A DNA stretch of 64,000 bases from Terriglobia bacterium. GTDB taxonomy: Bacteria; Acidobacteriota; Terriglobia; Bryobacterales; UBA6623. This document shows, one piece after another, positions 9,617 to 64,000 of the stretch. Positions within the stretch are counted from its first letter, which is position 1. The number at the start of each line of letters is the position of its first letter. The notes under the pieces are model-generated. The model had not been told where the DNA came from. It saw only the letters and a program-made list of their open reading frames with translations, and made no database searches. The stretch lies in contig VXRL01000065.1 of assembly GCA_009838515.1 (NCBI GenBank), positions 62,001 through 126,000 on the forward strand, in the 5' to 3' direction. Made by a program: the position numbers and the translations under genes.

Positions 9617-9646
9617 TTGACCTGGCGCTATCGAAAGCCTTACTCT
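9617..9646 (+). promoter_or_regulatory. promoter of the cytochrome-PQQ dehydrogenase operon
   Basis: TTGACC (9617-9622), an 18-base spacer and TACTCT (9641-9646) precede the GTG at 9654 by 7 bases. If used, the mRNA would begin at or next to the start codon. It is divergent from the DUF3604 promoter 33 bases away. Confidence 0.4.
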
Positions 9647-9653
9647 GCCTAGC

Positions 9654-10433
9654 GTGCGCTGGCGGGTACTGACGCTGCTCGTGTCGTTGGCCGTGGGGGC
9701 CGCGGGCCAAGAACTGGAGCGCAGCCCGTTCCACGGGGACGAGACATCGATCGGAGTCGGCAAGGCCTCCTTCCGCCTGCGCTGCTCCGCCTGCCACGGC
9801 ATTCACGCCGAGGGCGGCAAGGGGCCGCCGCTGAATCGCGGGGAGTTCGCCGCGGGTAACAGGGACGTGGACATCTACCGCGTGATCGCGCGCGGCGTGC
9901 CGGGAACGGAGATGCCCGCCTACGGCACCCGCAATACCGAGGAGAACATCTGGCGGATCGTGGCCTTCTTGCGCACGTTCGAGGCTGTCGGGGATGAGCG
10001 AGTGGACGGAAACGCGGAGCGTGGCGAGGCCATCTTCTGGGGCACGGGCGGCTGTGGCGGCTGTCACAAGGTGGGTCGCCGCGGCGCCTCGTACGGGCCG
10101 GACCTGACCCGTATCGGGCGCTCTCGCAGCGTGCAGCACTTGCGCGAGGCGCTGCTGGACCCGGGCAAGGACCTGCCCGCCGGATACTTCGTGGTCAAGG
10201 TGGTCACCCGCGACGGCCGGACGGTGTCGGGAATCGGCTCGGGCATCGACGATTTCTCGGCGCAACTGCGAGACGCCTCGGGCAGGTTGCACTCCTTCTT
10301 GCGCGAAGACGTGGAATCCATCGAGCGCGAATTCACATCGTTAATGCCCTCTTACGGCGAGAGCCTATCTGACCAGCAGCAGCGAGACTTGCTCGTGTAC
10401 ATGCAGGCGCTGCGCGGCGAGGAGTCCCGATGA
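9654..10433 (+). CDS. exported dihaem cytochrome c (PQQ dehydrogenase partner)
   Basis: 259 residues starting with GTG. Signal peptide MRWRVLTLLVSLAVGAAG. Two haem c sites, CSACH (about residue 43) and CGGCH (about 134). The first lies in a class I cytochrome c fold (GGKGPPLNRGEF, axial-Met candidate GTEMPAYG). The second opens a Planctomycete/Verrucomicrobium-type haem-binding domain (SYGPDLTRIGRS, LLDPGKDLPAGYF, VTRDGRTVSGI). Its stop overlaps the start of the PQQ dehydrogenase by 4 bases (ATGA), so the two are translationally coupled, and this is the likely periplasmic electron acceptor of that enzyme. No Shine-Dalgarno is visible before the GTG. An ATG-initiated version is not available in frame nearby. 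Confidence 0.88.
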   Translation: MRWRVLTLLVSLAVGAAGQELERSPFHGDETSIGVGKASFRLRCSACHGIHAEGGKGPPLNRGEFAAGNRDVDIYRVIARGVPGTEMPAYGTRNTEENIWRIVAFLRTFEAVGDERVDGNAERGEAIFWGTGGCGGCHKVGRRGASYGPDLTRIGRSRSVQHLREALLDPGKDLPAGYFVVKVVTRDGRTVSGIGSGIDDFSAQLRDASGRLHSFLREDVESIEREFTSLMPSYGESLSDQQQRDLLVYMQALRGEESR

Positions 10434-42729: not shown

Positions 42730-42780
42730 TGCTGTAGTCTCCGAATCGAGGTGTGACGCGCACGCGGCGCTTGCTGGGAG

Positions 42781-44226
42781 CTACGCCAGCAGGGGTTCTA
42801 CGACCTCGCCGTGCACGTCGGTCAGGCGGAAGTGCCGACCTTGGTACTTGAACGTCAGCCGCTTGTGATCCACGCCGAGGCAGTGCAGGGCCGTCGCTTG
42901 CAGGTCGTACACATGCACCGGATCTTCGACGACGTTGTAGCAGTAGTCGTCGGTCTGTCCGTGCGTCGTGCCGGGCTTGATGCCGCCGCCCGCCATCCAC
43001 ATGGTGAAGCAGCGGGGGTGATGGTCGCGCCCGTAGTTGGTCTCGCTGAGCTTGCCCTGGCAATACACGGTGCGCCCGAACTCACCGCCCCAGATGACCA
43101 GCGTGTCCTGCAGCAGCCCGCGTTCCTTGAGATCCATGATCAGGGCCGCCGAGGCCTGGTCGGTGTCCCTTGCCTGAAGCCGGATGTCGCGAGGCAGGTC
43201 CGTGTGCTGGTCCCAGCCCCGGTGGAACAGCTGCACGAAACGCACGTCGCGCTCGGCCAGGCGGCGCGCCAGCAGGCAGTTGGCCGCATAAGTGCCCGGC
43301 TTGCGCGAGTCGGGGCCATAGCGTTCGAACACGTGCTCGGGCTCGCTGGAAAGATCCATCAACTCCGGCACCGAGGCCTGCATGCGGTAGGCCATCTCGT
43401 ACTGGGCGATCCTGGTCTCGATCTCCGGGTCGCCGAACTCCTGCGAGCGCAGCCGATTGATCTCCGAGACGGCATCCAGCATGCTGCGCCGAGTCGAGGA
43501 GTCAATGCCCTTCGGATTGGACAGGTAGAGCACGGGGTCGTCGCTTGAGCGGAACTTAACGCCCTGGTACCTTGACGGCAGGAATCCGGAGCCCCACAGC
43601 CGTGAGAAGAGGGGCTGGGACTGGTTGAGGTTGCTGCCCTGCGAGATCAGCACCACGAAACCGGGCAGGTCACGATTCGCGCTTCCGAGCCCGTAGCTCA
43701 CCCACGAGCCCATCGACGGGCGTCCCGGTTGCTGGAAGCCGCTCTGGATGAAGGTGATGGCCGGATCGTGGTTGATGGCATCGGTCTGCACCGTCTTCAC
43801 CAGGGAGATGTCGTCGACGACCTTGGCGGTGTGCGGCAGCAGCTCGCTCAGCTCTGTGCCCGACAGCCCGTGCGGCTGGAACTTGAACAGCGACGCGGCG
43901 ACCGGCAGGCGGTCTTGGCCCGAGGTCATGCCCGTGATGCGCTGTCCCTTGCGCACCGAGTCGGGCAGGTCCTGGCCGTGATACTTGCGCAGCAGGGGCT
44001 TGTGGTCGAACAGGTCGATCTGCGACGGCGCCCCCGACTGGAACATGTAGATGACGCGCTTGGCCCGCGGCGCAAAGTGGGGCAGGTCGGGACGGCCCCC
44101 GGCTGTCGCGCCGTAGCCCTCGCCCCGCAGCAGGAACGACAGCGCCATCGGGCCGATACCGGCCGCTGTGCGGCCGAAGAACTGGCGTCGCGTCGCGAGC
44201 AGGTCTCGCTCGAGCTGGGGGTTCAT
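42781..44226 (-). CDS. DUF1501 protein, Tat-exported
   Basis: 481 residues. Twin-arginine-like N-terminus ([22 protein letters not shown]). DUF1501 landmarks: [80 protein letters not shown] and [21 protein letters not shown]. This is an alkaline-phosphatase/sulfatase-like fold that is nearly always encoded next to a DUF1549/DUF1553 protein in Planctomycetes, Verrucomicrobia and Acidobacteria; the pair's biochemistry is not established. Its ATG is 7 bases after the stop of the upstream gene, so expression is coupled. Confidence 0.93.
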
Positions 44227-44233
44227 CGCCGCA

Positions 44234-47506
<3,273 letters not shown>

Positions 47507-48069
47507 CAGCGTGCCTTTGTGTCTAGTGTACGGTTTTGACCGTTCTTCGGGCCAGCAGTGGCTGCGGCAAGGACGCTCGTTCGAGCGAATGTGGGTCAGC
47601 CATGTCGTGACAGAGAACCCGGAGGTGTCTTTCCCCGGCCGCTCCCTGGATAGGGAGTTCGGTGGCCTGCGCATCCTGCCTCGCGATCACAACGAACGCC
47701 CGTAGGTGCATGGCTCGAATCCATGCTCATCGATGTGATCGAGCGATCTGCGGAGATTGTGCAGCGACGCCGGGGACGCGTGCTCTCTTGGAGACCGCAG
47801 CGAGACGGCCTGGGTCATCGCAGGTTCGCCGACGCTCGTCAAGCTCTCGTCCGCGCACCCGATCGGTCTGGCGGGGGACGCATGCAACCACACAATTGTT
47901 GTCATCGCCTTGGAGACGCCCGCGGTGATCGCGGTGGTCGAAACTGCGCTTTTTTCTGCCGCGCTACTTGCGCATGAGCCTATCGACGACTCCGGAGTAC
48001 CTTGCCGCACGGTACGACAAGACCTCTGGCGTGATCGACGCAGCCGTATTCGTGTTTTCATAGGTACTA
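47507..48069. other. 563-base divergent intergenic region with a nested inverted repeat
   Basis: Separates the DUF1553-DUF1501-fucosidase operon from the polysaccharide lyase. At 47684-47741 an outer repeat CGATCACAACGA / TCGATGTGATCG (11 of 12 matches) encloses GCATGG-CTCGAAT-CCATGC (47708-47726), which looks like a tRNA T-arm. No acceptor, D-arm or anticodon fits around it. Frames up to 175 codons exist on both strands here, but with overlapping shadow composition and no family match. Confidence 0.4.
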
Positions 48070-51042
48070 GTGATCGTGCCCGTTGAATTGGTATCGGGCG
48101 CTGTCGGCATCGGCAGCCTGTTCGGCCTGCCCGAGGCGTGCGGCCTGAACCAAGCGCTGGTGAGCTGGCTGCTCGTGTGGGGCGTGGGAGCCTGCTGCGG
48201 GTCTGAATCCCCACGAGCCGCTCTCGGGCCAGGGCTCCGGGCGGCTCTCGCCTGTCTGTGCGTGGTTCTGACCGGGCCGCTCCATGCTAGTACGGGGAAC
48301 ACGGACGAGTTGGTTCAGAAATACGAGAACCTGCTACTTGTTACGTCGGATGAATACGAAGACCTACCGGCCGCCAAGGCTGCTGTCGAGGGGCATATGC
48401 TGGGCCGGTTCAGACGCGCGGTGCGCCGGGTCGAGTCGTTTGCTTTCGCCCGCCGGGGCCAGCTGGCCTATTTCGCCAGAATGCCCGCGACCGAGACGGA
48501 CCAGCCGGCCGAGGAGCAACCGGCTGGGGAGAGCAATAGTGAATTCCATCGTCTATTCAACGACACTGCGCTATCGCTGGCGTACGCCTATCAAACGCCG
48601 GGAACGGTCGACCGCACGAACCCGTACTACCAGGACCCGGGGGTGCTGCAGCAGTACCTCTCGATACTTGACTATGCCTACAGCCGCGGCCTCACCGAAG
48701 ACGCATGGCTCCCCGATCACGCAGGAACCGCCAGCGCAAGGGCCATCGAACGGGGATTGGAGCGCACCTCCGGCGATTTTTCCCAGGTGTCGTTGCGCTT
48801 CGGCGGATTCATCCAGAGCATCTTCTTGATGCGCGGGGCCCTCGCCGAAGCGGGCCTGCTGGCGAAGTACAGGGCGGTCGTCCGCAATCTGGTCGTGAAC
48901 TGCGGCGTGTTGTACGGAGCGTTCTCTCGCATCGCGAGGGAAGATGCGGGGGTTACCTACCCGGACCCCCTGCCAATCGTCCAGCAATATCATCTCAATG
49001 CCGACGGGCTGCGTCTTTTCGTCGACTATTTCTGGCCGTACTATCTGCTTGTCGACGACCCCTCCGAACGCAGCATGATGGCCGCGATCCTGTACCAGGT
49101 CGTCGACACGAACATCGCGGTCAAGCCTGGAAGCTACGGCACCATCAAGCCGGACGGGGTAGGCTTTCACCATCACGGGGTCTATGCCAGCGCCTACGCG
49201 CCCCACGCCTTCGAAGTGGCCGCCCAGCTGCTCTACCTGCTGAAGGGCACGACCTTCTACCGCACGGAGAACGTTGAAGCGGTGAAGCTGGCGCTTGAGA
49301 CCTACCGCGTGATGGTGCAAAGGTACTCGTCCTCTTTCGCGCTTCGAGGGCGTTTCGTCGGAGGGGACGCCGAAGGCAGATCCCGCGCTATTGCCAAGGC
49401 CATGGCGTACCTCGCCCATCCAGACGGAGCTGACGACATGGATATGAAGGCCCGGTTCCTTGAATTCTTCGACCCGGAGTACTTCTTCTCCGAGGAGCGA
49501 AGACAACCGTTTTCCGATGGATCTCGGGGCCTTGCCATTCAGGGCATGGGCATTTACCGCCTGATTTCGGACCTCCAAGGTTCCGGCATCGAGCCGAGCG
49601 AGGCCCCCACCGGAGTCTGGATCAAGCCCTACGCTGCGGCTGGCTTCTTCCGTCGGGGCGACTGGCTGGTCACGGCGAAGGGCTTCAGCCAATACTTTTG
49701 GAACTACGAGAACGAGTTCGACAATCACGAGAACAGCTTCGGCCAGAACTGGGCGTACGGGTCCCTTATGGTCTTCAGCGCGGGCACTCCGATCAGCGAT
49801 CTGGCCTCTGGCCACGCTCTCTTCAGCGGCTGGGACTGGTACCACGTCCCGGGAACGACGGCGAGTCACTACGCCATCGAGGAACATTCCGACCAGGGCT
49901 TGAAGGCGTTGCGCAGGGAACTGGGAATCCCGCAGAGAGATACCCATCGCAACTACAACAGTCGGACGTACGTCGGCGGCGTGAGCCTGGGCGATCACGG
50001 CTTCTTCGTGCAGGATCTGGCAGCCGTGCCATTCACGGCGCCGACAGACCTGCGGGGCTGGAAGAGCTATTTCTTCGTGGGCGACCAAGTCCTGGCCCTA
50101 GGGAGCCACATCCGCGGCGGCACAGAGAACGACGAGACCCATACCACGATCTTCCAGACGTATCTGGAGGACCCCACCACGGCGACCCAAGTCAACGGGG
50201 AACAATTGACCGGCCTCGAGACGATGCAGGAGCACCCGGCGGGGACTGCCGTCAAGCTGACCGACAGCGTCGGAAACAGCTTCTACCTATCGGCCAGCAC
50301 GGCCGATCTGACGGTGACCCGAAGGCTCCAGCAGAGCATGTCGCTTTCCTACGAAGCGACTGAAGGGGCATTCGCCACGGCCTATCTGAATCACGGGATC
50401 AGGACGTATGGGGGCAGCTACGAGTACGTGGTCATCCCGGCCGACGCGGACGCCGCGAAGCTGGATCAGGTGGCAGCCGATCCTTCAGCCTACTACCAGG
50501 TGCTCGATTCGACACAAATGCACTTGGTTCGCTTCCCACAACAGGAAATCACGGCTTACGCATTCTACGAGGCGGTCGAGACGCCTGACGAGGAACTGGT
50601 GCGGGCTGTCAATCAACCCGCGGCAGTGATCATCCAGGAGCAGGAAGTGGAGGAAGAGCAGACGCAGGACGCAGAGACCGGGCAGATGCAGGAAGCGGAG
50701 GCAGGGCCGAATCCCGTCCGGCTGGCTGCCAGCGTCCCGGACATCGGATGGCAGGTCGACCCGAGAATCTTCCGAGAGGGTCTCAACTACGCGTCCCGGC
50801 ATTTTGCCTTCCAGCGCGCAAGGGAGCACACCCTGAGGCTGGTGCTGCGGGGGAACTGGTGCCCGGACGAGTCGACGGCGCCATTTGGATCCGAATGGAT
50901 TTCGCTGTCCGGAGAGACGCTGCTTCAGCTGCGGTGCAGCGACGGGCTCGCCACCGAGATCCTGCTGAGACCGTGCCCAACCGCCCCCGCAGAGCCCGAA
51001 GTGGGAATGGAGGAAATGCTGCTGCGCTGGCTCAACGATTAG
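48070..51042 (+). CDS. polysaccharide lyase family 8 (chondroitin/hyaluronan lyase-like), exported
   Basis: 990 residues as opened by the ATG at 48070; the true start may lie downstream, because a signal-like segment (LRAALACLCVVLTGPLHAS) ends at about residue 73. An alpha/alpha-toroid domain (about 80-450) carries the catalytic stretch KPDGVGFHHHGVYASAYAPH (His and Tyr as in chondroitinase ABC-type enzymes). It is followed by beta-sandwich domains with WIKPYAAAGFFRRGDWLV, NYENEFDNHENSFGQNWAYG, NYNSRTYVGGVSLGDHG and a TYGGSYEYVVIP block. Cleaves uronic-acid-containing glycans by beta-elimination. An unusual acidic Gln/Glu-rich linker (about 855-880) precedes the C-terminal domain. Together with the fucosidase it points to host or algal glycosaminoglycan-like substrates. 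Confidence 0.88.
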   Translation: MIVPVELVSGAVGIGSLFGLPEACGLNQALVSWLLVWGVGACCGSESPRAALGPGLRAALACLCVVLTGPLHASTGNTDELVQKYENLLLVTSDEYEDLPAAKAAVEGHMLGRFRRAVRRVESFAFARRGQLAYFARMPATETDQPAEEQPAGESNSEFHRLFNDTALSLAYAYQTPGTVDRTNPYYQDPGVLQQYLSILDYAYSRGLTEDAWLPDHAGTASARAIERGLERTSGDFSQVSLRFGGFIQSIFLMRGALAEAGLLAKYRAVVRNLVVNCGVLYGAFSRIAREDAGVTYPDPLPIVQQYHLNADGLRLFVDYFWPYYLLVDDPSERSMMAAILYQVVDTNIAVKPGSYGTIKPDGVGFHHHGVYASAYAPHAFEVAAQLLYLLKGTTFYRTENVEAVKLALETYRVMVQRYSSSFALRGRFVGGDAEGRSRAIAKAMAYLAHPDGADDMDMKARFLEFFDPEYFFSEERRQPFSDGSRGLAIQGMGIYRLISDLQGSGIEPSEAPTGVWIKPYAAAGFFRRGDWLVTAKGFSQYFWNYENEFDNHENSFGQNWAYGSLMVFSAGTPISDLASGHALFSGWDWYHVPGTTASHYAIEEHSDQGLKALRRELGIPQRDTHRNYNSRTYVGGVSLGDHGFFVQDLAAVPFTAPTDLRGWKSYFFVGDQVLALGSHIRGGTENDETHTTIFQTYLEDPTTATQVNGEQLTGLETMQEHPAGTAVKLTDSVGNSFYLSASTADLTVTRRLQQSMSLSYEATEGAFATAYLNHGIRTYGGSYEYVVIPADADAAKLDQVAADPSAYYQVLDSTQMHLVRFPQQEITAYAFYEAVETPDEELVRAVNQPAAVIIQEQEVEEEQTQDAETGQMQEAEAGPNPVRLAASVPDIGWQVDPRIFREGLNYASRHFAFQRAREHTLRLVLRGNWCPDESTAPFGSEWISLSGETLLQLRCSDGLATEILLRPCPTAPAEPEVGMEEMLLRWLND

Positions 51043-52161: not shown

Positions 52162-52238
52162 CGAAGCACTAGCCTTCGATCCCGGCCCCCGGGGGGCGTG
52201 TTCCAGGATTTCTGCGGATTCCCCCTTGCAGTAGTCTT

Positions 52239-53520
52239 TGGGAATTATATACGAAAATAACACGCTCAAATTTATGTTATTACGGAAACAGGTGACCCAA
52301 TTTACCACCTGCTCCCTGCGGTGCTCCCTCTCGCCAGCGGGCTACCGGCACATGGACAACATCCTTGGCCGCTTGAACTGGCTCTACAACCAAGCTCTGG
52401 AGGAGCGCAAGACGGCCTACGCCGAGCGCAAGCAAACACTGCACCTGTACGAGCAGCACAAGTGGCTGACGGGGTTGCGCGCTCGCAATGAGCAGGGACT
52501 GGGCGAGATCGCGCTAGGTCCGGCGCGCGGGATGCTGAAGCGCTTGGACGAGGCCTTCCAGTCGTTCTTCCGGCGCGTCAAGGCCGGCCAAGCCCCGGGG
52601 TTTCCGCGCTTCCGGCCGCTCAGCCGTTGCGTCACGATCGACTTGACCAAGATTAGTGACGGCACGGTCAAGCCACGAGGCGGCCACTACGAGCTGGAGG
52701 TGAAGGGCTTTCCGCGCATCCGGCTACACGGTTCCCGAGAGTTGCCGGCTGGGGTCGCGAAGGCGGTCCGGCTGACGAAGCGCGGGCGGCGCTGGGAAGC
52801 CTCGCTGGTGTATGCGGTCGAACGGGCAGCCCTGCCCGCCAGTACCCAGGCGGTGGGGATCGATCTTGGCGTGCGCAAGCGCATGACGCTATCGAACGGC
52901 AAGCGCTACCAGCGGGCAACCCGTGACTGGAAGCGCAAGCGTAGGCTGCAGCGTGCGCTCGCGCGCTGCCGGAAGGGCAGCCAGAGACGGTGGAAACGAG
53001 TGCAGGCGCTGGCGCGCTGGCAGCGGCGGGAGTTCGTGCGGGAGCGGAACGCCTGCCATCGGGCTACAACCGAGATCATCCGCGACTACGGATTGGTCGC
53101 GGTGGAGCAGCTGCAGGTCGCGAAGATGACTCGCTCGGCGCGAGGAACGGAGGAACAACCGGGCAGGAACGTCGCGGCGAAGGCCGGGCTCAACCGGGAG
53201 ATACTGTCACAGAACTGGTCGCTTCTACGCAGACAACTCGAGCAAAAGGCAGAATGGGCTGGGCGAGAGTACGTGGAGGTTGATCCCAGGTACACTTCAC
53301 AGGATTGCAGCAGGTGCCACGCGCGGAACAAACCGCGAGCAGCGGAGACGTACCGTTGCCGCGCCTGCGGACTGGTGGAGGATCGCGACGTGAATGCCGC
53401 GATCAACATCTTGGCGGCCGGGGTTATTGCCGCCGGAGCGTCAACGTGGGCCGTTGGGCCGTGCGTCGCTCCAGAATCGTATGCGAGGGCAGCCTGACGG
53501 TACTCTCGTATATAATCCCC
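52239..53520 (+). mobile_element. TnpB-only insertion element with terminal inverted repeats and flanking 7-bp repeat
   Basis: Left end GGGAATTATATACGA (52240-52254) and right end TCGTATATAATCCCC (53506-53520) are inverted repeats matching at 14 of 15. TAGTCTT occurs directly outside both ends (52232-52238 and 53521-53527), as a target duplication would. Inside the left end AATAAC (52256-52261) pairs with GTTATT (52276-52281), a subterminal hairpin like those of IS200/IS605 elements. No transposase other than TnpB is encoded, so movement would need a partner in trans. IS200/IS605 elements normally have neither terminal repeats nor target duplications, which makes this one unusual. Confidence 0.7.
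52274..53497 (+). CDS. tnpB: TnpB, IS200/IS605-family RNA-guided endonuclease
   Basis: 407 residues from the ATG at 52274. N-terminal helical/wedge part (LNWLYNQALEERKTAYAERK), then a split RuvC domain with D197 (AVGIDLGVRKRM), E278 (LVAVEQLQ) and D372 (EDRDVNAAINI), all three catalytic acids present. The zinc finger CSRC...CRAC lies between the last two. The length and intact residues suggest an active nuclease guided by an omega RNA that would be made from the 3' end of the element. No TnpA is nearby. The ATG overlaps the left-end hairpin. Confidence 0.92.
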   Translation: MLLRKQVTQFTTCSLRCSLSPAGYRHMDNILGRLNWLYNQALEERKTAYAERKQTLHLYEQHKWLTGLRARNEQGLGEIALGPARGMLKRLDEAFQSFFRRVKAGQAPGFPRFRPLSRCVTIDLTKISDGTVKPRGGHYELEVKGFPRIRLHGSRELPAGVAKAVRLTKRGRRWEASLVYAVERAALPASTQAVGIDLGVRKRMTLSNGKRYQRATRDWKRKRRLQRALARCRKGSQRRWKRVQALARWQRREFVRERNACHRATTEIIRDYGLVAVEQLQVAKMTRSARGTEEQPGRNVAAKAGLNREILSQNWSLLRRQLEQKAEWAGREYVEVDPRYTSQDCSRCHARNKPRAAETYRCRACGLVEDRDVNAAINILAAGVIAAGASTWAVGPCVAPESYARAA

Positions 53521-53533
53521 TAGTCTTGTGCTG

Positions 53534-55426
53534 ATGTCACATATTGATGTGTTGGACGCCGGAGCGGGCGTTCTGGAACGATACGCTGACGTATTCACGC
53601 CAAAGGCTCTCGACGTGATCGCAGGATTGGCCGCGCTCGATCGCGAACGCAAGGACTTGATGCAGGCCAGATTGGAGCGTCGGCGCCGGCGCGCTCAGAA
53701 TGCGGAGAGGATTCAGTTCTTGGATCCGGAATCCACGATCCCACGCACTCAGATCAAGGTTGGCGACGCAAGGGCGGGGCGCTTTACCGGGTCGGCGATC
53801 CCGGAGGACCTGCAGTGCCAGTGGATACAGGGTACCGGTCCTGGCGCGAAACCTCGATCCTCGATCGAAAAGAGCATCCGGAACGTGGCTTACGCACTTC
53901 TTTCGGGCGCGGACGGGTGGATGTTCGATGGCGAGGATGCCTTGGGGCAGATCGAGACCATGTCACTCGACAACCAGCGAAACCTGCGCTTGGCGTTCGC
54001 TAGGGATCCGATCTTCCTCAAGGCCGCGGAGACAGTCGCAGGGGAGATGAACAAATGGGCGGAAGATTTCTTCGGCCACAAGATTATCGAAGACTGGCAA
54101 AGACAGCTTGACTTCACCACCAAGATCTTCCGGGCGCGCGGTCTTCATTTGGAGGACCGTCACATTCGCAACACCGACGGCAGCGGCTTTTCCGCGTCGA
54201 TCGTCGATGCCGCCCTGTACGCTACCGGGAATCATCAGACCTTGGCGAACGAGGGCTCGAGCTTGGCTCTATACCTTCCGAAGATCCAGACGGCCGAAGA
54301 AGCTGCGCTATGGCACGAGATTCTCGGCGGCGTAGAGTCGTCGTTGGGCCTTCAGAGCGGGGCGATCAAGACCTATGTCTTGGTCGAGCAGATCGAGGCC
54401 GCGTTCCAGTTGATGGAGATCCGGGCGGCACTCGGGAACCGGTTCGTAGGATTCAATACCGGTCGCTGGGACTACATCAACAGCGTGGCCGACGCGATGG
54501 CCTGGCATCCTGACTTCGTCCACCCGAACATCGATGCCGTGGTGATGACCTACGGCTACATGCGGAACTATGAGGACCGTGTGCGGCGAGCCACCAACAC
54601 TCCCGATGAGAAGGGCCAGTGCGCACTTTGGCAGGGTGGCATGGAACCCAACATTCCAGTTGGCTCTTCGGAGGGTGTGTCCGCGAGCATGCAGAAGGCG
54701 ACACTCGGTGCCGAGCGCGAACAAAGAGAGGGAGCCAGTGGCAAGTGGGTCGCCCACTGGAAGATGGTGCATATCATTCGGCCGGTCTGGGAGAGGGCCG
54801 GTCAGGCGAACCAAGCCGGCCGCTCATTCCCGTCCCTGACGTACACCGATGCTGACGCCGACGGTTTGGTGCTTCTCGAGCCCGCGCCCCGAACAATCCG
54901 TGGAGCCCGAGACCTAATCAGCGTGGCCGTCCAATACGGCAACGCCTTTGAACAGGGGTTCCAGGCGGCAGCCCTGAAGCCCGCAGACTTCTTCGGCAAC
55001 GAAGACGTGCTCTACCTGATGGAGGACATGGCGACAGGGGAGATCCGGCTCAGCATCCTTTGGGAATGGCTGCACAAGACCGCGACCCTCACTGCCGCGG
55101 ACGAGGAAACCGGTGCTGAGGCGGGCGATCTGTTTACCGAGGAGATGTTCTCGCGGCTGCTCACCGAGGAGTTCGCGAAGCTGCGCCAAGCGAGAGACGT
55201 CGACGTTCACGACGACTCGAAAGGCACGACTCTGCCGGTCTCGCGTGTCATTGTCGATGAGTACGTGAGATGCGGCCAAAAAGCCCCGTGGATGGTTGAC
55301 CTGCTCAACGTCAACCTGACGGTCGAGCAGGAGGAAGCGGCGAGGCTACGGACGCAAGACTTCCTGGACCTGTTCTCTAAGCAGGGTGTTCGCATCACCA
55401 AGAACCTCGATTTCGAAGCTGGGTAG
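53534..55426 (+). CDS. malate synthase (A-like)
   Basis: 630 residues from the ATG at 53534; a GTG two codons upstream is in frame. The malate synthase signature is present as GFNTGRWDYINSVADAM, with the TIM-barrel strands before it (VLVEQIEAAFQLMEIRAALG) and the C-terminal domain with EDMATGEIRLSILWEWLHK, as in malate synthase A. Condenses glyoxylate and acetyl-CoA to malate. It is about 100 residues longer than classic A-type enzymes. No isocitrate lyase is nearby, so glyoxylate could come from another route. The start codon is only 13 bases from the right end of the TnpB element, so its native promoter was probably displaced; TATAAT within the element end may drive it now. Confidence 0.85.
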   Translation: MSHIDVLDAGAGVLERYADVFTPKALDVIAGLAALDRERKDLMQARLERRRRRAQNAERIQFLDPESTIPRTQIKVGDARAGRFTGSAIPEDLQCQWIQGTGPGAKPRSSIEKSIRNVAYALLSGADGWMFDGEDALGQIETMSLDNQRNLRLAFARDPIFLKAAETVAGEMNKWAEDFFGHKIIEDWQRQLDFTTKIFRARGLHLEDRHIRNTDGSGFSASIVDAALYATGNHQTLANEGSSLALYLPKIQTAEEAALWHEILGGVESSLGLQSGAIKTYVLVEQIEAAFQLMEIRAALGNRFVGFNTGRWDYINSVADAMAWHPDFVHPNIDAVVMTYGYMRNYEDRVRRATNTPDEKGQCALWQGGMEPNIPVGSSEGVSASMQKATLGAEREQREGASGKWVAHWKMVHIIRPVWERAGQANQAGRSFPSLTYTDADADGLVLLEPAPRTIRGARDLISVAVQYGNAFEQGFQAAALKPADFFGNEDVLYLMEDMATGEIRLSILWEWLHKTATLTAADEETGAEAGDLFTEEMFSRLLTEEFAKLRQARDVDVHDDSKGTTLPVSRVIVDEYVRCGQKAPWMVDLLNVNLTVEQEEAARLRTQDFLDLFSKQGVRITKNLDFEAG

Positions 55427-55476: not shown

Positions 55477-57993
55477 TCAACGACGAACGGGAGGTTCTGT
55501 GTGAATCCCCCGTGCCGCAGCAAAATCAAGGTAGGGTGCAAATGCAGCGTTGACCTGGCCCGCTGTGAGGCCGAAGTCCTTCAGCAGGTAGCTGTGCCGT
55601 TTCTCACGGCGTCGCAGATCTTCCTGCCACGAAAGCCAGTCCTCCATTTCGTCCACGGCCGTCTGCTCCAGCGGCCAGCCAAATCGGCTATAGATATCAC
55701 GCACGACCTTCATGGGGTCACGGATCAGATCGACATAGGCAACGTCGACCCAACGGTGCTCGAGTTCCGGGTGGGCTGATCGGAATCGCGTCGCTCCGTT
55801 CAGCATTTCGCTCATGAAAGCAAGCTGCTCCGCTCCGGTGTCGCGCCCGGAGACCGGTTCCATGGCGACCGAGCGCGCCCGTTCCACCAAGCTGTTCCAG
55901 GACCCCATGACCTCGGCGGGCGTGCGGTGGGTCTGGATGAACAGAGCGTCGGGATAGGTTTCGATCAGGGTCTCTAGCTCCATGAGATGGAAGGGCATCT
56001 TGAACAACCACTGACCTCTGTGCCCGGGACCGGCCTGCAGACGTTGCCATGTGTAGTGCTGTGCCGCGCGATAGTGAAAGGCATAGGCATCTCCCAAACC
56101 GTTCGCAGCCAGCCAACGTTTGTAGGCGGGCACATGGAACTGGGCAGCGAAGGTCCACGACGAAAACGCCGTCTTGAATATTGGGAAATCCTCTTCCGGT
56201 TCGTCGATGCCGAAGGGGTGCACGCCTTCTAGGGCCTTGAAAATATCGAAGGCGCGGTACGCTTCCTCGGTTCGCACCCGACGGGGATCCATGGCCGTGC
56301 CCGCGACAGCGACGTAGTCACCGGTCGACAGGATCGGCTGGACGAGCTCGTACATCCGGAGCGCCCAAAACCGCTTGTCGCGCACCATCAACCGGTGCAT
56401 CAGGGTCGTTCCGCTGCGGTTGATCCCAACGATGAAAACCGGCCTGGCTATCCGCTCTTTTCCGATCTCGGGGTGACGCTGCGCTTCCTTGGCAAACAGG
56501 GCGTTGTGGCGCAGGAACCGGCTCAGTTCGAAGACGACGTTTCCGAGCTTGTCCTCCTCGAGCCGAGCCTCCGGCGCCTCCAATGCCCCGACCAGCTGTC
56601 GCAGGGCTTGGCGCTTCCATTCCGGATAAGCCGCATCGAAGGAGACGCCCAACTCGGCGGCGTAGCGCTTGGCCCGAGCCATTAGGTTGTCGAAGTCCAG
56701 GCGGCTCTGTGGAACGGCATACGGCCATTCGCGACGATGGCGCTCAACCCATCGATGGGAACGCCTGAGCTTGGTCAACGTCCCCGTCCATTCAATCGGG
56801 AGGGGACAGTCCTCGCGGATGGCACGATCGCAAATCGGCAACCGGTCCTGCGGCTTCTTCCTGCTGAACCAATATCTTGCGAAATGGTCGAGCACAGTCC
56901 AGTAGCCGTGGAGCGGCGAGCTCTCGCCACGCGCCTGGCAGGCCCGCTTGAAGGAGTCGTAGGGTACTTGGGGCCAATAGAACCCGAAATCGCCTGGCTC
57001 AAGATCGTACTCGTCCAATTGCGGGTTGCAGCAATGGTAGATCGTGAAACGGCGGTTAGCGTTCAGGGATATGGCGGCACAGATCCGGCTCAGCGTATCG
57101 ACGGCCTCGTTGCTGGATCGAAACGTAAATCCCTCTGGCAGGGTTTCGCATTCGGCCGCTGCCGCAAACATCCGGACCGCAAGGTCGTTGACCGGGCTGT
57201 AACCAGTGCTGGACAGGTTGGTTTGCGGCAACCGGAAAATCGCTAGTGGCATGCCGGTCTGCTGCGCGAACCGAAGCGCCTGCTCCGATGTCAGTTTGCT
57301 CCATGGATAGCCGAGCAGGCCGATTGGAAACGTCTCCTTCATCCGTGCCAGATCCGGCTGCATCTGGTGGTCGATGCGTGCATCCTCGAATTCGTTCGCG
57401 AAGCCGCAAAAGTATTGCGGGAACACGCCCATGGTGGACGCGTAGAACAAGTGCTTGAAGCGCTTGCGCAAACATAACTCGAGCACGTTGCGGACGCCGA
57501 ACGTGTTTATCCTACGTATCCCCAGATACGAAGATAGGAGATTTATGTCGGCCGCCAGATGATAGACCGCGTCAATCTGCCCGCACAGGCCGTCAAAGTG
57601 GCCGGTGGTAAGGCCGAACCGGGTGTGGCCGATGTCCCCGATCACCACTTCGATACGAGGCCCGAAGGAATCGTCCCAGACTTCCGCCTGTTGCAGCGCA
57701 GCGCGGATACGCTCGTGCCCATGTGCGACACTGTTGGCCCGAACGATGCAGTGGACCCTTAATTCGGCTCGCTGCCGCAAGAGCTCGCTCAGAAAGAAGC
57801 GGCCGATGAACCCGGTGGCTCCGGTCAGCAAGACGTCTCGAAACTTGTCCGCCGAAATCGCGGCAGCCGGCGGGTCCGCACTGACAGCCTGGTGAACGAA
57901 TCGACGCAGCGTTTGGACGTCGCTCTGGCACTGCGCGGGCAGCCTTCCCGCCAGCGGCGCTATGGTTTCGTTAGCGGCAGCCTGTAGAGACAT
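55477..57993 (-). CDS. thioester reductase-sulfotransferase fusion
   Basis: 838 residues from the ATG at 57993. N-terminal part (about 55-420): NAD(P)-binding thioester-reductase domain of the Male-sterility/NAD_binding_4 type, with LLTGATGFIGRFFLSELL, VHCIVRA, VVIGDIGHTRFGL, VYHLAADINLL, and the YPWSK catalytic Tyr/Lys. C-terminal part (about 515-800): PAPS-dependent sulfotransferase with the 5'-phosphosulphate loop FIVGINRSGTTLMHRL and the 3'-phosphate region FIQTHRTPAEVMGSWNSLV. Predicted to reduce a carrier-bound or CoA acyl chain to aldehyde or alcohol and sulphate it. Last gene of the PKS operon, 38 bases after the radical SAM gene. I know no standard annotation for this fusion. Confidence 0.85.
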   Translation of the reverse strand: MSLQAAANETIAPLAGRLPAQCQSDVQTLRRFVHQAVSADPPAAAISADKFRDVLLTGATGFIGRFFLSELLRQRAELRVHCIVRANSVAHGHERIRAALQQAEVWDDSFGPRIEVVIGDIGHTRFGLTTGHFDGLCGQIDAVYHLAADINLLSSYLGIRRINTFGVRNVLELCLRKRFKHLFYASTMGVFPQYFCGFANEFEDARIDHQMQPDLARMKETFPIGLLGYPWSKLTSEQALRFAQQTGMPLAIFRLPQTNLSSTGYSPVNDLAVRMFAAAAECETLPEGFTFRSSNEAVDTLSRICAAISLNANRRFTIYHCCNPQLDEYDLEPGDFGFYWPQVPYDSFKRACQARGESSPLHGYWTVLDHFARYWFSRKKPQDRLPICDRAIREDCPLPIEWTGTLTKLRRSHRWVERHRREWPYAVPQSRLDFDNLMARAKRYAAELGVSFDAAYPEWKRQALRQLVGALEAPEARLEEDKLGNVVFELSRFLRHNALFAKEAQRHPEIGKERIARPVFIVGINRSGTTLMHRLMVRDKRFWALRMYELVQPILSTGDYVAVAGTAMDPRRVRTEEAYRAFDIFKALEGVHPFGIDEPEEDFPIFKTAFSSWTFAAQFHVPAYKRWLAANGLGDAYAFHYRAAQHYTWQRLQAGPGHRGQWLFKMPFHLMELETLIETYPDALFIQTHRTPAEVMGSWNSLVERARSVAMEPVSGRDTGAEQLAFMSEMLNGATRFRSAHPELEHRWVDVAYVDLIRDPMKVVRDIYSRFGWPLEQTAVDEMEDWLSWQEDLRRREKRHSYLLKDFGLTAGQVNAAFAPYLDFAAARGIHTEPPVRR

Positions 57994-58031
57994 GATCAGG
58001 TTTTTCGTGTACCGGCGGTCGAGAGAATGTC

Positions 58032-59774
58032 TTAGGCGGTTCCCGCCTGAATGCACCGCTCCGCTTGAGAGTCGACCGTGGCCCGAAACGACTTCAGGGC
58101 CGGTTCGATTCCATCCTCGCTGTAGCGAAGATCGCTCGGGATCGACCGATACCGCGTCTCGACGCGCGCGAACAATGCCCGACGGCGGTCAAGGATCGCA
58201 TCCGGGTGTTTCGCACGCTGCGAAACCGCTTCCCGGAACACGTCCAGCTCTGCCTCGAGGAACAGCTTGAAGTCATAGATCATGATCTGCTGACGGGTGA
58301 CCCTTTCGAGGTGGTAGCCCAAGGCGGCCAGCCTTAGCGCGAGGGCAAGCATTCGGGGATGCTTGCGCGAGACTTGCGCGATGAATCTCGAAAAGGCGGG
58401 AATCTGGTTCTTCGACAGTTGCCGGCGCACGCGCATCGCCCCGACAACGGCGGCATTCCCGCCCAGCGGCTTCCTCAAATGGGGCACCGCCTTGAGGTGC
58501 TCGAACAGGGCCAGGCAGCGCTGGAAGTAGTTCTCGAGAGTTGGATCATAGAGGGTGGCGGTTACCCGCTGATATCCATCGATTAACGTCTCCGGGTCCA
58601 ATTCCGGCCTGAAGTTGAGCGTCATCGCATTGGTGCCGATTTCCTTCTCCAGCAGGCGGTTCTCGGCATGCAGGCGCTGGTACATGTCTGTCCCTCGTAG
58701 GGCCGTCAAGAGGTAGATCGGCGCGACCGGAATTCCCGCCTGTTGGATGAACTCGATTTGCGCGTCGAACACTCCTTCGTCGTCGCTATCGAGTCCTAGG
58801 ATGAACCCGCCTTGGACCTGCATGCCCTTGTGCTGGATCTTGCGGACTGCGTGGAACAGGAAGTTCTCTTCTTTCCTGCTGGTGTTCTGCGGTTTCTTGG
58901 TCTTGATTAGCGCCTTGGGATTGGGAGTTTCGATACCGAGGAACACGGTATCGAAACCGGCCTCCACCATCGCGTCCATCAACCCGTCCATGTGGGCCAG
59001 ATTGACGCTCGCTTCGGTAGAGAGCGAAAACGGGTAGCCGTGAGCCTTCTGCCACTCGGCGATGACCGGGAGAAGGTTCATCGCCTCCCGCTTGTTGCCG
59101 ATGAAGTTGTCGTCGACCAAGAACAGGGGGCCCTTCCAGCCCAACTGGCGCAGCAAATCGAACTCGGCCACCATCTGGGCCGGCGACTTGGTTCGGGGGA
59201 CGCGACCGTAGAGCTTGGTAATGTCGCAGAACTCACAATCGAACGGGCATCCCCGGGAGAACTGAAGCCCCATCGAATAGTAGTTGTCCAGTTCGACGAG
59301 ATCGAAGCGCGGCAAGGGTGTCAGGGTGACGTCCGGCTTCCGTGGCTCCCTGTAGATCGTCTTCGCAATTCCGCTCTCCAGATCCCGCAGAAACCCAGGG
59401 AAGATTTCCTCAGCCTCGTCCAACACGAAGTGGTCGACCCCCGGGATCTCGTCGTGGAACGTGGTGGGGTGAGGGCCTCCGGCGATTACGGGCACGCCTG
59501 CGCGGTTGCAACGCTCGATGACGGTCTTGAGGGACACCCGCTGCACGATCATGGTGGAAGTGAAGACCATGTCTGCCCATTCCAGATCGGAGTCCTCGAG
59601 GGGCGCCACATTCATGTCTACGACGCGCAGGTCGTACTCGGGCGGAAACATCGCAGCGATGGTGAGCAAGCCCAAGGGTGGGAAGGCTGCCTTGATGCCC
59701 ACCATCTCCAAGGCGTAGTTGCCTCCCCAATAGGTCGGAGGGTGTTCGGGATAGACCAGAAGCGCGTTAGGCAT
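58032..59774 (-). CDS. B12-binding radical SAM enzyme
   Basis: 580 residues. N-terminal cobalamin-binding-like domain (about 1-150: MPNALLVYPEHPP, DLRVVDMNVAPL, VIAGGPHPTTFHDEIPG). Then the radical SAM TIM barrel with the 4Fe-4S motif RGCPFDCEFCDITKLYG (CxxxCxxC, about residues 176-183), FLVDDNFIGNKREAM, STEASVNLAHM and FLGIETPNPKAL. The C-terminal part resembles DUF4070 (GFILGLDSDDEGVFDAQIEF) plus a helical tail. Such enzymes often C-methylate unactivated carbons or do other radical chemistry on lipids. The gene is 26 bases after the PKS and 38 before the reductase-sulfotransferase, so it most likely acts on the polyketide or its lipid product. Confidence 0.9.
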   Translation of the reverse strand: MPNALLVYPEHPPTYWGGNYALEMVGIKAAFPPLGLLTIAAMFPPEYDLRVVDMNVAPLEDSDLEWADMVFTSTMIVQRVSLKTVIERCNRAGVPVIAGGPHPTTFHDEIPGVDHFVLDEAEEIFPGFLRDLESGIAKTIYREPRKPDVTLTPLPRFDLVELDNYYSMGLQFSRGCPFDCEFCDITKLYGRVPRTKSPAQMVAEFDLLRQLGWKGPLFLVDDNFIGNKREAMNLLPVIAEWQKAHGYPFSLSTEASVNLAHMDGLMDAMVEAGFDTVFLGIETPNPKALIKTKKPQNTSRKEENFLFHAVRKIQHKGMQVQGGFILGLDSDDEGVFDAQIEFIQQAGIPVAPIYLLTALRGTDMYQRLHAENRLLEKEIGTNAMTLNFRPELDPETLIDGYQRVTATLYDPTLENYFQRCLALFEHLKAVPHLRKPLGGNAAVVGAMRVRRQLSKNQIPAFSRFIAQVSRKHPRMLALALRLAALGYHLERVTRQQIMIYDFKLFLEAELDVFREAVSQRAKHPDAILDRRRALFARVETRYRSIPSDLRYSEDGIEPALKSFRATVDSQAERCIQAGTA

Positions 59775-59799
59775 GAGTTGCCGTCCTCGGTTCCCTCAT

Positions 59800-62700
59800 T
59801 CAAGGTTGGTGGGCCGCGGACTCCGTCGTGCCGGCATCGTCGAAGTTCGGGAAATGGCTCTCCGGCGGGCTTGCGAAGATCGACGGCGTACGCCGTGCGC
59901 ATGATGGGGCAGCAGCGGACACCTCCCCGACGGGCTCCACGCTCGTGTCGTCGGGATCCTCGGCGACTTCATCCTCGCCATGGACAATGCCCTGCGCCAG
60001 CGACAGGGCGGAAGCGGTGGTCATCAGTTCGAGCGCGCTCACTCGATAGTTGAATTCCGTCTGGATGAATGTTCCAAGCTCGGCGACTGAGAGCGACGTC
60101 AGTCCGAAACTGGACAACGGTTCTTCGGCTCCGCTCTCGTCGTGACCGCAAAGCTCGGCCACCTTTGCCGCAATCTGCGCCACTACGGTTTCAACCGTCC
60201 ACTCGCCGGCCGGCCCGGCCTCGAACGCGTCTCGGTTGCGCATCAGGCGCCCGATGCGCATGTAGTCGGCAAAGTCCACCGTCCACAACGGACGTTCGAA
60301 CAGGGCGCAGATCAGATGATCCTGGTCCGACAGCGCCCGCAAGGCGTAGTCCAGATTAGCGGTGGCGAAATCGCTGCTCACCGGGGGCAGGCCTGCCGCT
60401 CTCATCATGCGCAAGACCGGAAGACTGCGGGCGGCCATGCCTGCGTCGGCCACGGCGGCCATATTGTAGGCCAGGCATGGCAGGCCTTGTCTCCGGCGGC
60501 TGGCAGCAAGACCGTCGAGGTAGCCGTTGGCGGCGCTGTAGTTGATCTGTCCGGGGTTGCCCAGCGCAGAGGAGGTTGACGAGAATAGCACGAAGTAGTC
60601 GAGTGAATGGTCTCGCGTGGCCCGGTGGAGATGAAGGGCGCCGAGGGCCTTGGGAGCGAAGACCCGTGCCACGGATTCCGCTGACAGATCGTCGAGCAAG
60701 TGATCGTCCAAGACGCCGGCGAGGTGGAAAACGCCCTTGAGCGGCCGTTGGACTTGCGCAACGCAGCGCCGCACGTCGTCTTCCACCGCAACGTCCCCCG
60801 CCACGATGTCGAACTCGACCTGCTCGTCCATATAGGCTAGAGCGCTCGTCCGGCGAATCCAGTCCGCGTCCCGGTTGCGCTCGGGGTGGCGGTCCATCAG
60901 GGTGAGATGACGCGCCCCTGAGGCCACCAAGTAGGGCAGCAATCTCAGGCCGAATCCGCCCAGAGCGCCAGTGACCAGATAAGTCGCATCAGGATCGAAC
61001 AGCGGCCGCACGTCGGCGATCGGGAATCCGGGATTGTCAGAATCCGGGGGGGCCATCAGAACCAGCTTGCCCTGGTGCTGGCCGGCTGCCATCTGCCGAA
61101 TAGCCTTCGCGTAATCCGCATAGCGAAACGCAGTGACGGGTAACGGCGACAGGGATCCCTTTGCGATCAGGTCGAGGCAAGCTTGGGAAAGTTCGCGCGC
61201 CAGGAGGGGATTGTCGAGCAACAGACGGTCGATGTCGATCGCCGCGAAACGCAGGTTCTTCCGAAACACTCGGAGGCCGAGCTCGTTGTCCGCATAGATG
61301 TCGACCTTGCCGATCTCGCAATGGCAGCCGCCCGGCCGCAGGGCCTGAAGACAGAGTTCGATATGGCGTCCTGCAAGAGAATTCAGGACAACGTCAACAC
61401 CTTCGCCCGCCGTAGCCGCCATAAGGCCGTCATGCCAGTCGAAGCTGTGGGAATCGAATGCGGCGCGTACGCCTAGCGCCAGCAGGCGCTCGCGCTTGCT
61501 CTCGCTGCCGGCGGTCGCGTAGATCTCGGCCCCTACATGCTTGGCCAGGGCGATGGCGGCCTGCCCGACACCGCCCATCGCAGAGTGGATCAGCACTCGC
61601 TGCCCCTTCATCAGGCGTGCCGTATGGATGAGTGAATAATATGCGGTGACGTAGACCGACAGCGTGGAGGCGGCCTCTTCCATGCTGAGGCCGTCGGGTT
61701 TGGCGAAGACGAGGGACTGGTCGACCGTCACGCGATTGGCAATGCAGCCGCCTGCGACAAAGGCCACCTCATCCCCGACACGGCAATGCCGCACGTTGGA
61801 TCCGACCCGACGAACGATCCCGCTGGCCTCCATGCCGATCTGCTGTCCAAGTGCCGAGCGTTCGTAGGCTAGTGCCGGCAAGAGACCAAGCGTCACCATG
61901 ACGTCGCGGAAATTCAGGGCCGCCGCCGTCACGTCGACCTGCACATCCTCTGGCCCTGGCGCGGCCGGTTCGTAGGTCTTCATCTGTAGACCGGCGACTT
62001 GTCCTGCATTGTCCGGAACGAGCCGGTATGCGCACTCGCCCGCGGTGGGAACCGGCAAGTATCGCTCTTTGAGACTGACCATCCGGGGTGCCCACAGACG
62101 CTTCTTGCGCACCGCCAACTCGCGTTCGCGCAGATCGCACCGCGCGAGCCACGCCAGAGTTTCCAGGTCGCTCGGATCTCCCAGATCGACCAGTCGGAAA
62201 TCGATCTTGGCGTCATCCCCGACTTCCAGCGCCATGCTGCGGACCGCACCCCAAAGCACGCTGCCGCGCGCATCTTCCACAGTGTGGGCGGCTCTCCGCG
62301 TCACCACCGTCAATCGGCAGCGGCGCTTAGCCTGTTCGATTCGATGCGAAGTCAGCGCCTGGACGAAAGCGATGAAACCTGCGGCCAGATCCTTGCCCGT
62401 CGGATCTCCGGGATCGGTGCCGCAGAAAAAGTCGACGGCCCGCAGGTCGGTCGCGTCCGGCCACTCGTGGAGCGCTTGCAGCGAAGCGCCTGTCGAATCT
62501 TGATGGGGGATCAGGTGCACTGAGCCCGGCTGGTCGAGCAAGGACGCCCATTCGGAAGCCCAGCTCCCCCGCTCTCCCAGCACCCATCTCGGGCCCGGAA
62601 GCTCCATGGCGTCGGCCGTGTCGGCGAAGTCGTGCGGCGCTTGCAGCAAGGTCGCACGCCGCCCCGCTCGCATGGTTCTCCAGCCCGTACCTGGTTCAAT

Positions 62701-64000
62701 CACAGATTCTTCGTCGTGAAGGGCCAGGGCGAGGCCGCCGGCCACCGCCAGCCGACGGGCCAATTCCCATCTTTCCGGGCCGAGAGACGCGTCGCCGTGC
62801 AGCAGGACGATCTCGGCGGCTGCCCGACGCAGCAAACCGTCCTCTGGGTCCAGAGGCGCGGATGGATCGACGCTCGTGAACCGCAGAGCGGCATCGTGTT
62901 GATGAAATGCGTCGTAGCAGTGCCGAGCGGCGTCCTCGCTGTCCGTAACCAGCCAGTATTCGCCGCTGCTGTTGACCTTGGATAAATCGTCAACGCAGCT
63001 CTTCAGGGCGGTGCGGTCTGGCTCCCGCCCGCCCGCCAGCTCGACCACGTGACAGGACTGAAACTCGCCCTCTCGCGACCCCTGGAGAGCGGCGATCAGG
63101 GCGGCGGGCGCGATCTCCTCGTCTGGCAGGCGGTCGATCAGTGCCGGGCCGCCGGGAATGAACTTCGGCTGCCATACGATCCGGTGCTTGCTGTTCGGCA
63201 GATCGTTCCAGCGCGGATTGGAGGTGAAATAGGTGTATTCGCCGATATGGGCAACGAGATCACCGGTCTCGGTGTCGTAGAAGCTGATGCTGCCGCCTGA
63301 CCTCTCGCCGCGACGCACGGAGTATTGTCCCCGTTCGTTCGCATTCATCCAATCGTCGCGGGGCCTGGTGACATGGCACGTGATCCGCGGTCCGGTCGGC
63401 CGGCGAAGGAAGGTCATGCCTTCGGCGCGCTGCGGAATGGCGAACAGATCGGCGGCGGTCAGCAGATGATAAAGGAATATCTGGAGTCCCCCGTCAAGCA
63501 ACGGGGGGCACGAGACGTAGCCCTCGTCGCGACCCGTCGTCCACAAGCCTTCGTCCATCTCTACATCGAAAAGGTAGGCCCTTGAAATCGTGTCCACTTG
63601 GACGCGCCGAATGGTTCGGAAAAACGGACCGTATTGGAAGGTCTCGCTCAGAACCGCTTCAAGGCGCTCATAAAAGTTCTGGTCGTCTGCGAGGGATGAG
63701 GATTCGAAGTGGGCCTTGTCGATGTCCGCCAGTCGTCCCGCCACGCCAACCGCGTGGTCGTCACCCACAAGGCGCACCTTTCCGCGGCAATGCAGCTCGC
63801 TGCTTGCGTCGACATCGTAGGCCCGGGAGGAAACCGTGAAGGTGAATTCGTCCGGTACTGAGGCGGCCCTGTACAAGGCTGTTTGCAGCCGCACCGCCAA
63901 TTTCGGGACGGGACAGGGCTGCAGGAACTCGAGTACTTCGAAGTACGCCGGAGCACCTCCGAGTGCCTCCAGGATCAGCTCGATGTAACCGGCTGCCGGC
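59800..64000 (-). CDS. highly reducing type I polyketide synthase (DH-...-ER-KR-ACP), 3' part
   Basis: The frame is open to the window edge; 1399 residues are visible and KS-AT must lie upstream. Domains: DH hot-dog fold (1-250, AAGYIELILEALGGAPAYFE, SCPPLLDGGLQIFLYHLL); a linker without a clear catalytic site, probably a dead methyltransferase plus structural KR half (250-660); ER (670-985, LNFRDVMVTLGL, SAMGGVGQAAIALAKHVGAE); KR (1005-1225, VTGALGGFGLRLLPYLVASG, LAGVLDDHLL, active Ser/Tyr/Asn in LFSSTSSAL, INYSAANGYLD); ACP (1270-1340) with Ser in SSFGLTSLSV, where the usual Asp of DSL is Thr. A 60-residue tail follows. DH, ER and KR all look active, predicting a saturated chain. First gene of a three-gene operon. 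Confidence 0.9.
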   Translation of the reverse strand, partial: PAAGYIELILEALGGAPAYFEVLEFLQPCPVPKLAVRLQTALYRAASVPDEFTFTVSSRAYDVDASSELHCRGKVRLVGDDHAVGVAGRLADIDKAHFESSSLADDQNFYERLEAVLSETFQYGPFFRTIRRVQVDTISRAYLFDVEMDEGLWTTGRDEGYVSCPPLLDGGLQIFLYHLLTAADLFAIPQRAEGMTFLRRPTGPRITCHVTRPRDDWMNANERGQYSVRRGERSGGSISFYDTETGDLVAHIGEYTYFTSNPRWNDLPNSKHRIVWQPKFIPGGPALIDRLPDEEIAPAALIAALQGSREGEFQSCHVVELAGGREPDRTALKSCVDDLSKVNSSGEYWLVTDSEDAARHCYDAFHQHDAALRFTSVDPSAPLDPEDGLLRRAAAEIVLLHGDASLGPERWELARRLAVAGGLALALHDEESVIEPGTGWRTMRAGRRATLLQAPHDFADTADAMELPGPRWVLGERGSWASEWASLLDQPGSVHLIPHQDSTGASLQALHEWPDATDLRAVDFFCGTDPGDPTGKDLAAGFIAFVQALTSHRIEQAKRRCRLTVVTRRAAHTVEDARGSVLWGAVRSMALEVGDDAKIDFRLVDLGDPSDLETLAWLARCDLRERELAVRKKRLWAPRMVSLKERYLPVPTAGECAYRLVPDNAGQVAGLQMKTYEPAAPGPEDVQVDVTAAALNFRDVMVTLGLLPALAYERSALGQQIGMEASGIVRRVGSNVRHCRVGDEVAFVAGGCIANRVTVDQSLVFAKPDGLSMEEAASTLSVYVTAYYSLIHTARLMKGQRVLIHSAMGGVGQAAIALAKHVGAEIYATAGSESKRERLLALGVRAAFDSHSFDWHDGLMAATAGEGVDVVLNSLAGRHIELCLQALRPGGCHCEIGKVDIYADNELGLRVFRKNLRFAAIDIDRLLLDNPLLARELSQACLDLIAKGSLSPLPVTAFRYADYAKAIRQMAAGQHQGKLVLMAPPDSDNPGFPIADVRPLFDPDATYLVTGALGGFGLRLLPYLVASGARHLTLMDRHPERNRDADWIRRTSALAYMDEQVEFDIVAGDVAVEDDVRRCVAQVQRPLKGVFHLAGVLDDHLLDDLSAESVARVFAPKALGALHLHRATRDHSLDYFVLFSSTSSALGNPGQINYSAANGYLDGLAASRRRQGLPCLAYNMAAVADAGMAARSLPVLRMMRAAGLPPVSSDFATANLDYALRALSDQDHLICALFERPLWTVDFADYMRIGRLMRNRDAFEAGPAGEWTVETVVAQIAAKVAELCGHDESGAEEPLSSFGLTSLSVAELGTFIQTEFNYRVSALELMTTASALSLAQGIVHGEDEVAEDPDDTSVEPVGEVSAAAPSCARRTPSIFASPPESHFPNFDDAGTTESAAHQP

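Follow-up and report, generated by a model that had tools for sequence, protein, structure and literature searches.

Three co-directional minus-strand genes, encoding a polyketide synthase (PKS), a B12 radical SAM enzyme and a fusion of a thioester reductase with a sulfotransferase, lie at 55477-64000 of the window, the whole 64,000-nucleotide stretch that was analysed. We call them swfA, swfC and swfB, after the cluster to which we assign them below. The first, swfA, occupies 59800..64000 in the window and continues to an ATG at 66900 in window-frame numbering. On the same contig it is a complete single open reading frame of 2366 aa with its stop at 59800, and Pfam assigns it one module, KS-AT-DH-ER-KR-ACP. 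The earlier note had held that its reading would fail if no KS-AT lay upstream; both domains are present in swfA, just beyond the window edge. The second gene, swfC (58032..59774, 580 aa), carries B12-binding, radical SAM (CPFDCEFC) and DUF4070 domains. The third, swfB (55477..57993, 838 aa from the ATG at 57993), joins a thioester reductase (NAD_binding_4, GYPWSK) to a PAPS-type sulfotransferase (Sulfotransfer_3).

The coordinates and the Pfam domains together bear out the earlier description of three tightly spaced genes, and the DH, ER, KR, cobalamin-type radical SAM, reductase and sulfotransferase domains predicted there were all found by Pfam. The spacing had been given as 26 and 38 bases. 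The swfA/swfC gap measures 25 bases (59775..59799), while the swfC/swfB gap is indeed 38 bases (57994..58031). An alternative swfB start, a GTG at 58056, would overlap swfC, but in four relatives of the same genus the gene begins at the ATG corresponding to 57993, which supports the 38-base gap. The operon and its domains are kept in relatives at 44-97% identity, and this excludes a chance pattern of open reading frames. An Rfam scan of the window returned five tRNAs and no match in the operon itself. The host genome comprises 5.84 Mb in 99 contigs.

Several other genes surround the operon. At 53528-55426 (+), convergent with swfB, a gene encodes a divergent 632-aa protein resembling malate synthase, which scores 225 of 594 bits and so falls far under the NCBIfam cut-off; it is also a swf neighbour in one other locus (L048). 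Next to it, at 52238-53497 (+), is an OrfB_IS605/TnpB-type gene with a Cas12f1-like TNB domain. Further away, at 41278-51042, are genes for an alpha-L-fucosidase, a polysaccharide lyase of family 8 and PSD1/PSCyt and DUF1501 proteins, a glycan-degradation set that would fit a life on host glycans. On the other side, divergent from swfA, Pfam identifies an HlyD/RND pair at window-frame 67576-71892. Beyond it, at window-frame 72084-79894, come a sulfatase, an ASPIC/UnbV protein and a second HlyD/RND pair, whose RND is 77% identical to the one beside the swf locus.

The swf cluster ('sponge symbiont widespread FAS') was described in 2013 by Della Sala et al. as swfA (KS-AT-DH-ER-KR-ACP, about 2350 aa), swfB (R+ST) and swfC (radical SAM), with identities to the reference clusters given as 58-73% (PMC3908369). 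Its printed hallmarks are a KS in which HATGT replaces HGTGT and the second Q of DPQQR is changed to I or V, an AT with IAFH, GHSSGE and QCALVEL, and, except in PSA11D7, a SwfC with B12-binding and radical SAM domains and CX3CX2C (PMC3908369). The present SwfA has the expected length and complete domain set. Its KS reads HATGT and DPQMR, the M being a small departure from the printed I or V, and its three AT motifs are exact. Among 39 aligned SwfA rows, HATGT occurs in all 33 that are ungapped there (6 gapped), and the variable residue of DPQxR is V, I, M or L in all 32 that are ungapped (7 gapped). The reductase-sulfotransferase fusion lies within the swfA operon, and the CPFDCEFC of SwfC fits CX3CX2C. 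In a KS tree, a starred branch separates 32 SwfA rows from 14 other KSs, taken from this and other genomes; the SwfA KSs are 66-98% identical to the present KS, compared with 27-37% for the other 14.

The operon is thus almost certainly a swf cluster, judged by the printed hallmarks and with the reference clusters compared by description. The earlier note had named the Sup and SWF groups as the closest described types. Sup was set aside, as the swf-only hallmarks are all present, and for SWF the case is stronger than had been claimed, since every hallmark tested was found. The Aplysina aerophoba metagenome cluster POR_0547-POR_0550 has, by its description, the same three proteins in the same order, A-C-B, although its swfA is split into two ORFs, perhaps by sequencing error (PMC3908369), where ours is one; its host was first given as Poribacteria, an assignment later withdrawn. 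The Plakortis simplex fosmids PS11G3 and PSA11D7 (JX946307/8) likewise carry swfA with KS-AT-DH-ER-KR-ACP and swfB with R+ST, and PS11G3 also swfC, but the order in PS11G3 is A-B-C and PSA11D7 has no swfC. No neighbours common to the clusters are reported (PMC3908369), whereas here an RND/HlyD pair flanks swfA. The locus is a further copy of a published cluster, for which the idea of an alkyl sulfate product has also already been published.

A full swfB match was found in 7 of 200 genomes of the order, this genome included, and all seven belong to the same genus. Scanning one genome per species gave 80 loci, 48 of which (L048-L095) are swf at 44-97% identity; the other 32 are partial matches or distant ST or R relatives and were left out of the swf count. 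The stretches from the same genus duplicate L048-L051, L082 and L090 and were counted once. The nearest named relatives are Bryobacterales/Terriglobia MAGs, whose RHO and SB06 labels we take to denote sponge samples. The SwfB tree has 46 of 48 rows, after removal of L026 and L027 as copies of L050 and L082: 18 from Pseudomonadota, 11 from Acidobacteriota, 8 from Gemmatimonadota, 4 from Nitrospirota, 3 from Latescibacterota and 2 without a phylum, one of them the window. Rows had to cover at least 640 reference residues, a rule that left out L055, L094 and L095 and admitted only the longer piece of L052 and of L068.

Starred branches of this tree force at least four changes for Acidobacteriota and at least three for Nitrospirota. 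This suggests that swf has been transferred between phyla, with mis-binned contigs as a caution. Some swf contigs are long: 2.54 Mb in Latescibacterota (L057), 1.05 Mb in Bryobacterales (L050), 448 kb in Gemmatimonadetes (L081), 334 kb in Rhodobacteraceae (L092) and 329 kb in Nitrospira (L056). The source organism of swf was called unresolved in 2014, in the available part of PMC4245539, and the available part of PMC9426513 reports swf-like clusters in MAGs of Nitrospirota, Latescibacterota and Acidobacteriota. Relative to that part, Gemmatimonadota and Pseudomonadota seem to be additions to the swf hosts.

The SwfA of this locus keeps the KS Cys, AT Ser, DH His/Asp, ER, KR and ACP Ser, and the active-site motifs, with the full DH-ER-KR set, are preserved in nearly all aligned rows. 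The DH motif usually has the form HxxxG; most SwfA rows instead have HxxxH, and some replace the second H by Y, R, G or Q. The AT motif IAFH has been read as pointing to malonyl units, and the swf ACP is loaded by Svp but not by the E. coli PPTase (PMC3908369). The host genome has one match to the ACPS family, in a 281-aa frame, which by its size could be of the Sfp type. A plasmid search with the SwfA KS gave distant relatives only, at no more than 41% identity among the matches listed. Another genome of the genus has a single 17,911-aa open frame (G002:C21; loci L196, L199-L202) with many KS-AT modules and at least eight SwfA matches inside it. To our knowledge it is among the largest PKS frames, the comparison being mycolactone MLSA1.

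SwfB was predicted with good confidence (pLDDT 89.7). The best fold match of its reductase half is the terminal R domain of myxalamid MxaA, which is also its top match by sequence, and that of the other half is the mycobacterial sulfotransferases STF1/STF9. These are its best solved relatives, but SwfB differs from them in holding both halves in one protein that is separate from the PKS. The reductase Tyr is kept in 45 of the 46 SwfB rows and the sulfotransferase P-loop NR[ST]GTT in all 46. The exception (L090, L023:2783-5299) has Cys for the conserved Tyr (GCPWSK), and its reductase may be impaired. A further copy in the same genus (L026:2214-4586, genome G007) is shortened at the start of the reductase and has no adjoining swfA or swfC; it is perhaps decaying. 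Viral contigs searched for swfB gave three pattern matches, with no relative among them.

The R domain of MxaA is a four-electron, alcohol-forming reductase, and an R domain of this kind would give the sulfotransferase its hydroxyl. The reductase of SwfB might instead halt at the aldehyde and the sulfotransferase use a different hydroxyl, carried either by the chain or by a separate acceptor; the product would then be a sulfated hydroxy-aldehyde or a conjugate. Release of an aldehyde by an R domain has precedent (PMC3908369), and the fold matches of SwfB also include R domains of carboxylic acid reductases. Hydroxyls may remain where an iterative PKS skips reductions. Nevertheless, the best match by both sequence and fold is the alcohol-forming MxaA domain, and R and ST are on one chain in the full-length relatives aligned. 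We therefore think release as an aldehyde unlikely and release as an alcohol the better reading.

A sulfotransferase also takes part in PKS chain termination in CurM ST-TE of curacin and in olefin synthase. CurM, however, has a thioesterase where swf has a reductase. In curacin biosynthesis ST domains make leaving groups (PMC3908369). By analogy, the sulfotransferase here would sulfate a beta-hydroxyacyl-ACP, and release and elimination would give an alkene, the final product having no sulfate. Pfam finds a thioesterase domain in none of the three proteins, and curacin-type termination by sulfation and decarboxylation was rejected on that ground. With the sulfotransferase fused to a reductase rather than to a thioesterase, and with a DH-ER-KR set, kept in nearly all SwfA rows, under which beta-hydroxyls need not persist, sulfation as a leaving group is very improbable. 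The reading we prefer remains sulfation of a released alcohol.

The B12-binding, radical SAM and DUF4070 domains of SwfC are the three that define HpnP-like proteins in the available part of PMC10697835, and HpnP and HpnP-like proteins have them in one protein, as SwfC does. In the 2013 tree SwfC is grouped with methylases, nearest to HpnP (PMC3908369). SwfC was not classed as HpnP, the methylase of hopanoid C-2: it lies in a PKS operon, forms its own family and shows no hopanoid link. It could be another B12-type radical SAM enzyme, catalysing dehydration, ring formation or chain coupling, so that the product would not be simply methyl-branched. SwfC reached no NCBIfam model at its cut-off, thus no equivalog, and a weak fold search was led by AprD4, a radical SAM dehydratase. 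The predicted structure behind that search is too poor (pLDDT 64) and was dropped as a guide to mechanism. The exact match to the HpnP and HpnP-like domain set and the 2013 tree both argue against such a role, which we regard as possible, though rather doubtful, and for methylation. We infer methylation from this kinship, and some swf clusters have no SwfC.

A plasmid search with SwfC gave distant relatives only, the nearest 37-45% identical among the matches listed. One locus has two different swfC genes in tandem between swfA and swfB (L061:6613-8433 and 8476-10008), where double methylation is possible. In another genome, which also has a normal swf operon, a frame of 904 aa (L043:9454-12168, G027 C49) contains a relative of SwfC at about 60% identity.

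The position of swfC varies. It lies between swfA and swfB, or just before swfB where swfA is cut off, in 21 of the 48 loci, after swfB on the same strand in five, after swfB on the other strand in four and before swfA in one. In the remaining 17 it is absent from the fetched stretch. Whole-genome searches for 16 of these 17 loci found SwfC elsewhere in five and no match at 1e-100 in 11; in two of the five, L063 and L070, swfC is within about 11 kb of swfA. Because swfC is variable in location or missing among the 48 loci, swfA-swfB is, on this gene-order evidence, the core of the cluster, and SwfC a putative tailoring enzyme that is optional and movable.

The flanks of the 48 loci provide evidence on sulfate supply. 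Neighbour families were found by clustering flank ORFs and then annotating the recurrent ones. Of the families shared across many phyla, the majority proved to be ORFs read out of frame or antisense within the swf genes, and these were dropped. A fusion of CysN with APS kinase, cysNC, adjoins swf in eight of 48 loci (L053-L056, L076, L078, L089, L092), from Nitrospirota, Gemmatimonadota and Alphaproteobacteria, and cysD is beside swf in four; in L092, swfA, cysD and cysNC are head to tail. Over the 443 kb of flank, chance would place a single-copy gene about 0.1 times, an expectation to be read with the eight loci amounting to about four lineages and cysNC having been chosen after the clustering. 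This linkage supports genuine PAPS-dependent sulfation by the predicted enzyme. It is absent at the present locus, as the host genome's only APS kinase is on another contig.

Exporters also recur near swf. Of 35 swf genomes, 18 have a best match to the RND of this locus at 42-95% identity, background pumps being at 33-37%, and in the other 17 the family was not found at the 42-95% level. In 10 of the 18 the RND is within about 8 kb of swf. Counted by locus, 12 of 48 have the pump family no more than about 8 kb away, including L049 and L091 with HlyD alone at the edge. RND matches at 1e-200 occur in two of 296 other Acidobacteriota genomes, with identities of 71% and 39%. Among 240 Alphaproteobacteria, three have the family (61-63%) and a further two have matches at 37-38%; swfB occurs in two, both among the three pump carriers, one of them being the genome on which the sample was centred. 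In these background searches the best two or three candidates per genome were scored. The pump is also found apart from swf: of seven control genomes, G002 and G009 carry it at 76-78% without swfB or a close SwfA, and G404 and G817 have the family without a close SwfA. For the sulfatase and the ASPIC protein beside this locus, no close relatives were found in the 48 swf loci. An MFS exporter is present in five of the 48, and in the Rhodobacteraceae loci L089 and L092 pump and cys genes lie between swfB and swfA. Exporters, as annotated, thus recur near swf but differ in kind, and the RND/HlyD linkage in relatives supports export of the predicted swf product. Linkage of cysNC and RND to swf is unreported in the mostly open-access texts covered, among them the main text of PMC3908369 and the available parts of PMC9864124, PMC4245539 and PMC9426513.

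An alkyl sulfate, perhaps methylated by SwfC, was proposed as the swf product when the cluster was described; no new compound appeared when the whole cluster was expressed in E. coli BAP1, and a standard work-up is noted to overlook alkyl sulfates (PMC3908369). Our literature search found no paper on an alkyl sulfate made by a marine sponge symbiont via a sulfotransferase. We suggest that SwfA, working iteratively, would extend an acyl chain carried by its own ACP with malonyl units and leave it largely saturated. Release by the SwfB reductase would most likely give a primary alcohol, to which the sulfotransferase half would transfer sulfate from PAPS, yielding a long-chain alkyl sulfate. SwfC, where present, would methylate an unactivated carbon, creating a branch. 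Export of this anionic, surfactant-like molecule would follow, here through the divergent HlyD/RND pair at 67576-71892. The domains, active-site motifs, operon and family, and the PAPS and pump linkage in relatives, are observed. We infer from them every chemical step, the methylation, the chain length and the export, and we give the whole scheme a probability of about 60%. PAPS and exporter genes beside swf in several lineages make the alkyl sulfate hypothesis likelier and easier to test. The earlier note had arrived at the same long-chain alkyl sulphate, possibly branched; the cysD/cysNC and efflux genes beside swf in relatives strengthen it, while the branching still depends on the kinship of SwfC.

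A wider picture can be offered more tentatively. The swfA-swfB pair may be a portable core that has passed between phyla in the sponge holobiont and whose product is a secreted alkyl sulfate, each lineage adding its own cysD/cysNC genes, its RND/HlyD or MFS exporter and between zero and two SwfC enzymes that tune branching. What is new here is the wider spread of the cluster, the optional nature of SwfC and the PAPS and exporter genes adjoining swf in several lineages. The swf genes are common in sponges, and complete operons from five named phyla go further towards the source organism than the three phyla printed in the available part of PMC9426513. Limits on PAPS, B12 or export may help to explain the failed expression in E. 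coli, and the linked PAPS and pump genes give testable grounds on which to seek an exported alkyl sulfate. If the picture is true, the sponge microbiome would share one class of exported, surfactant-like sulfolipid, with at least five phyla producing it in parallel.
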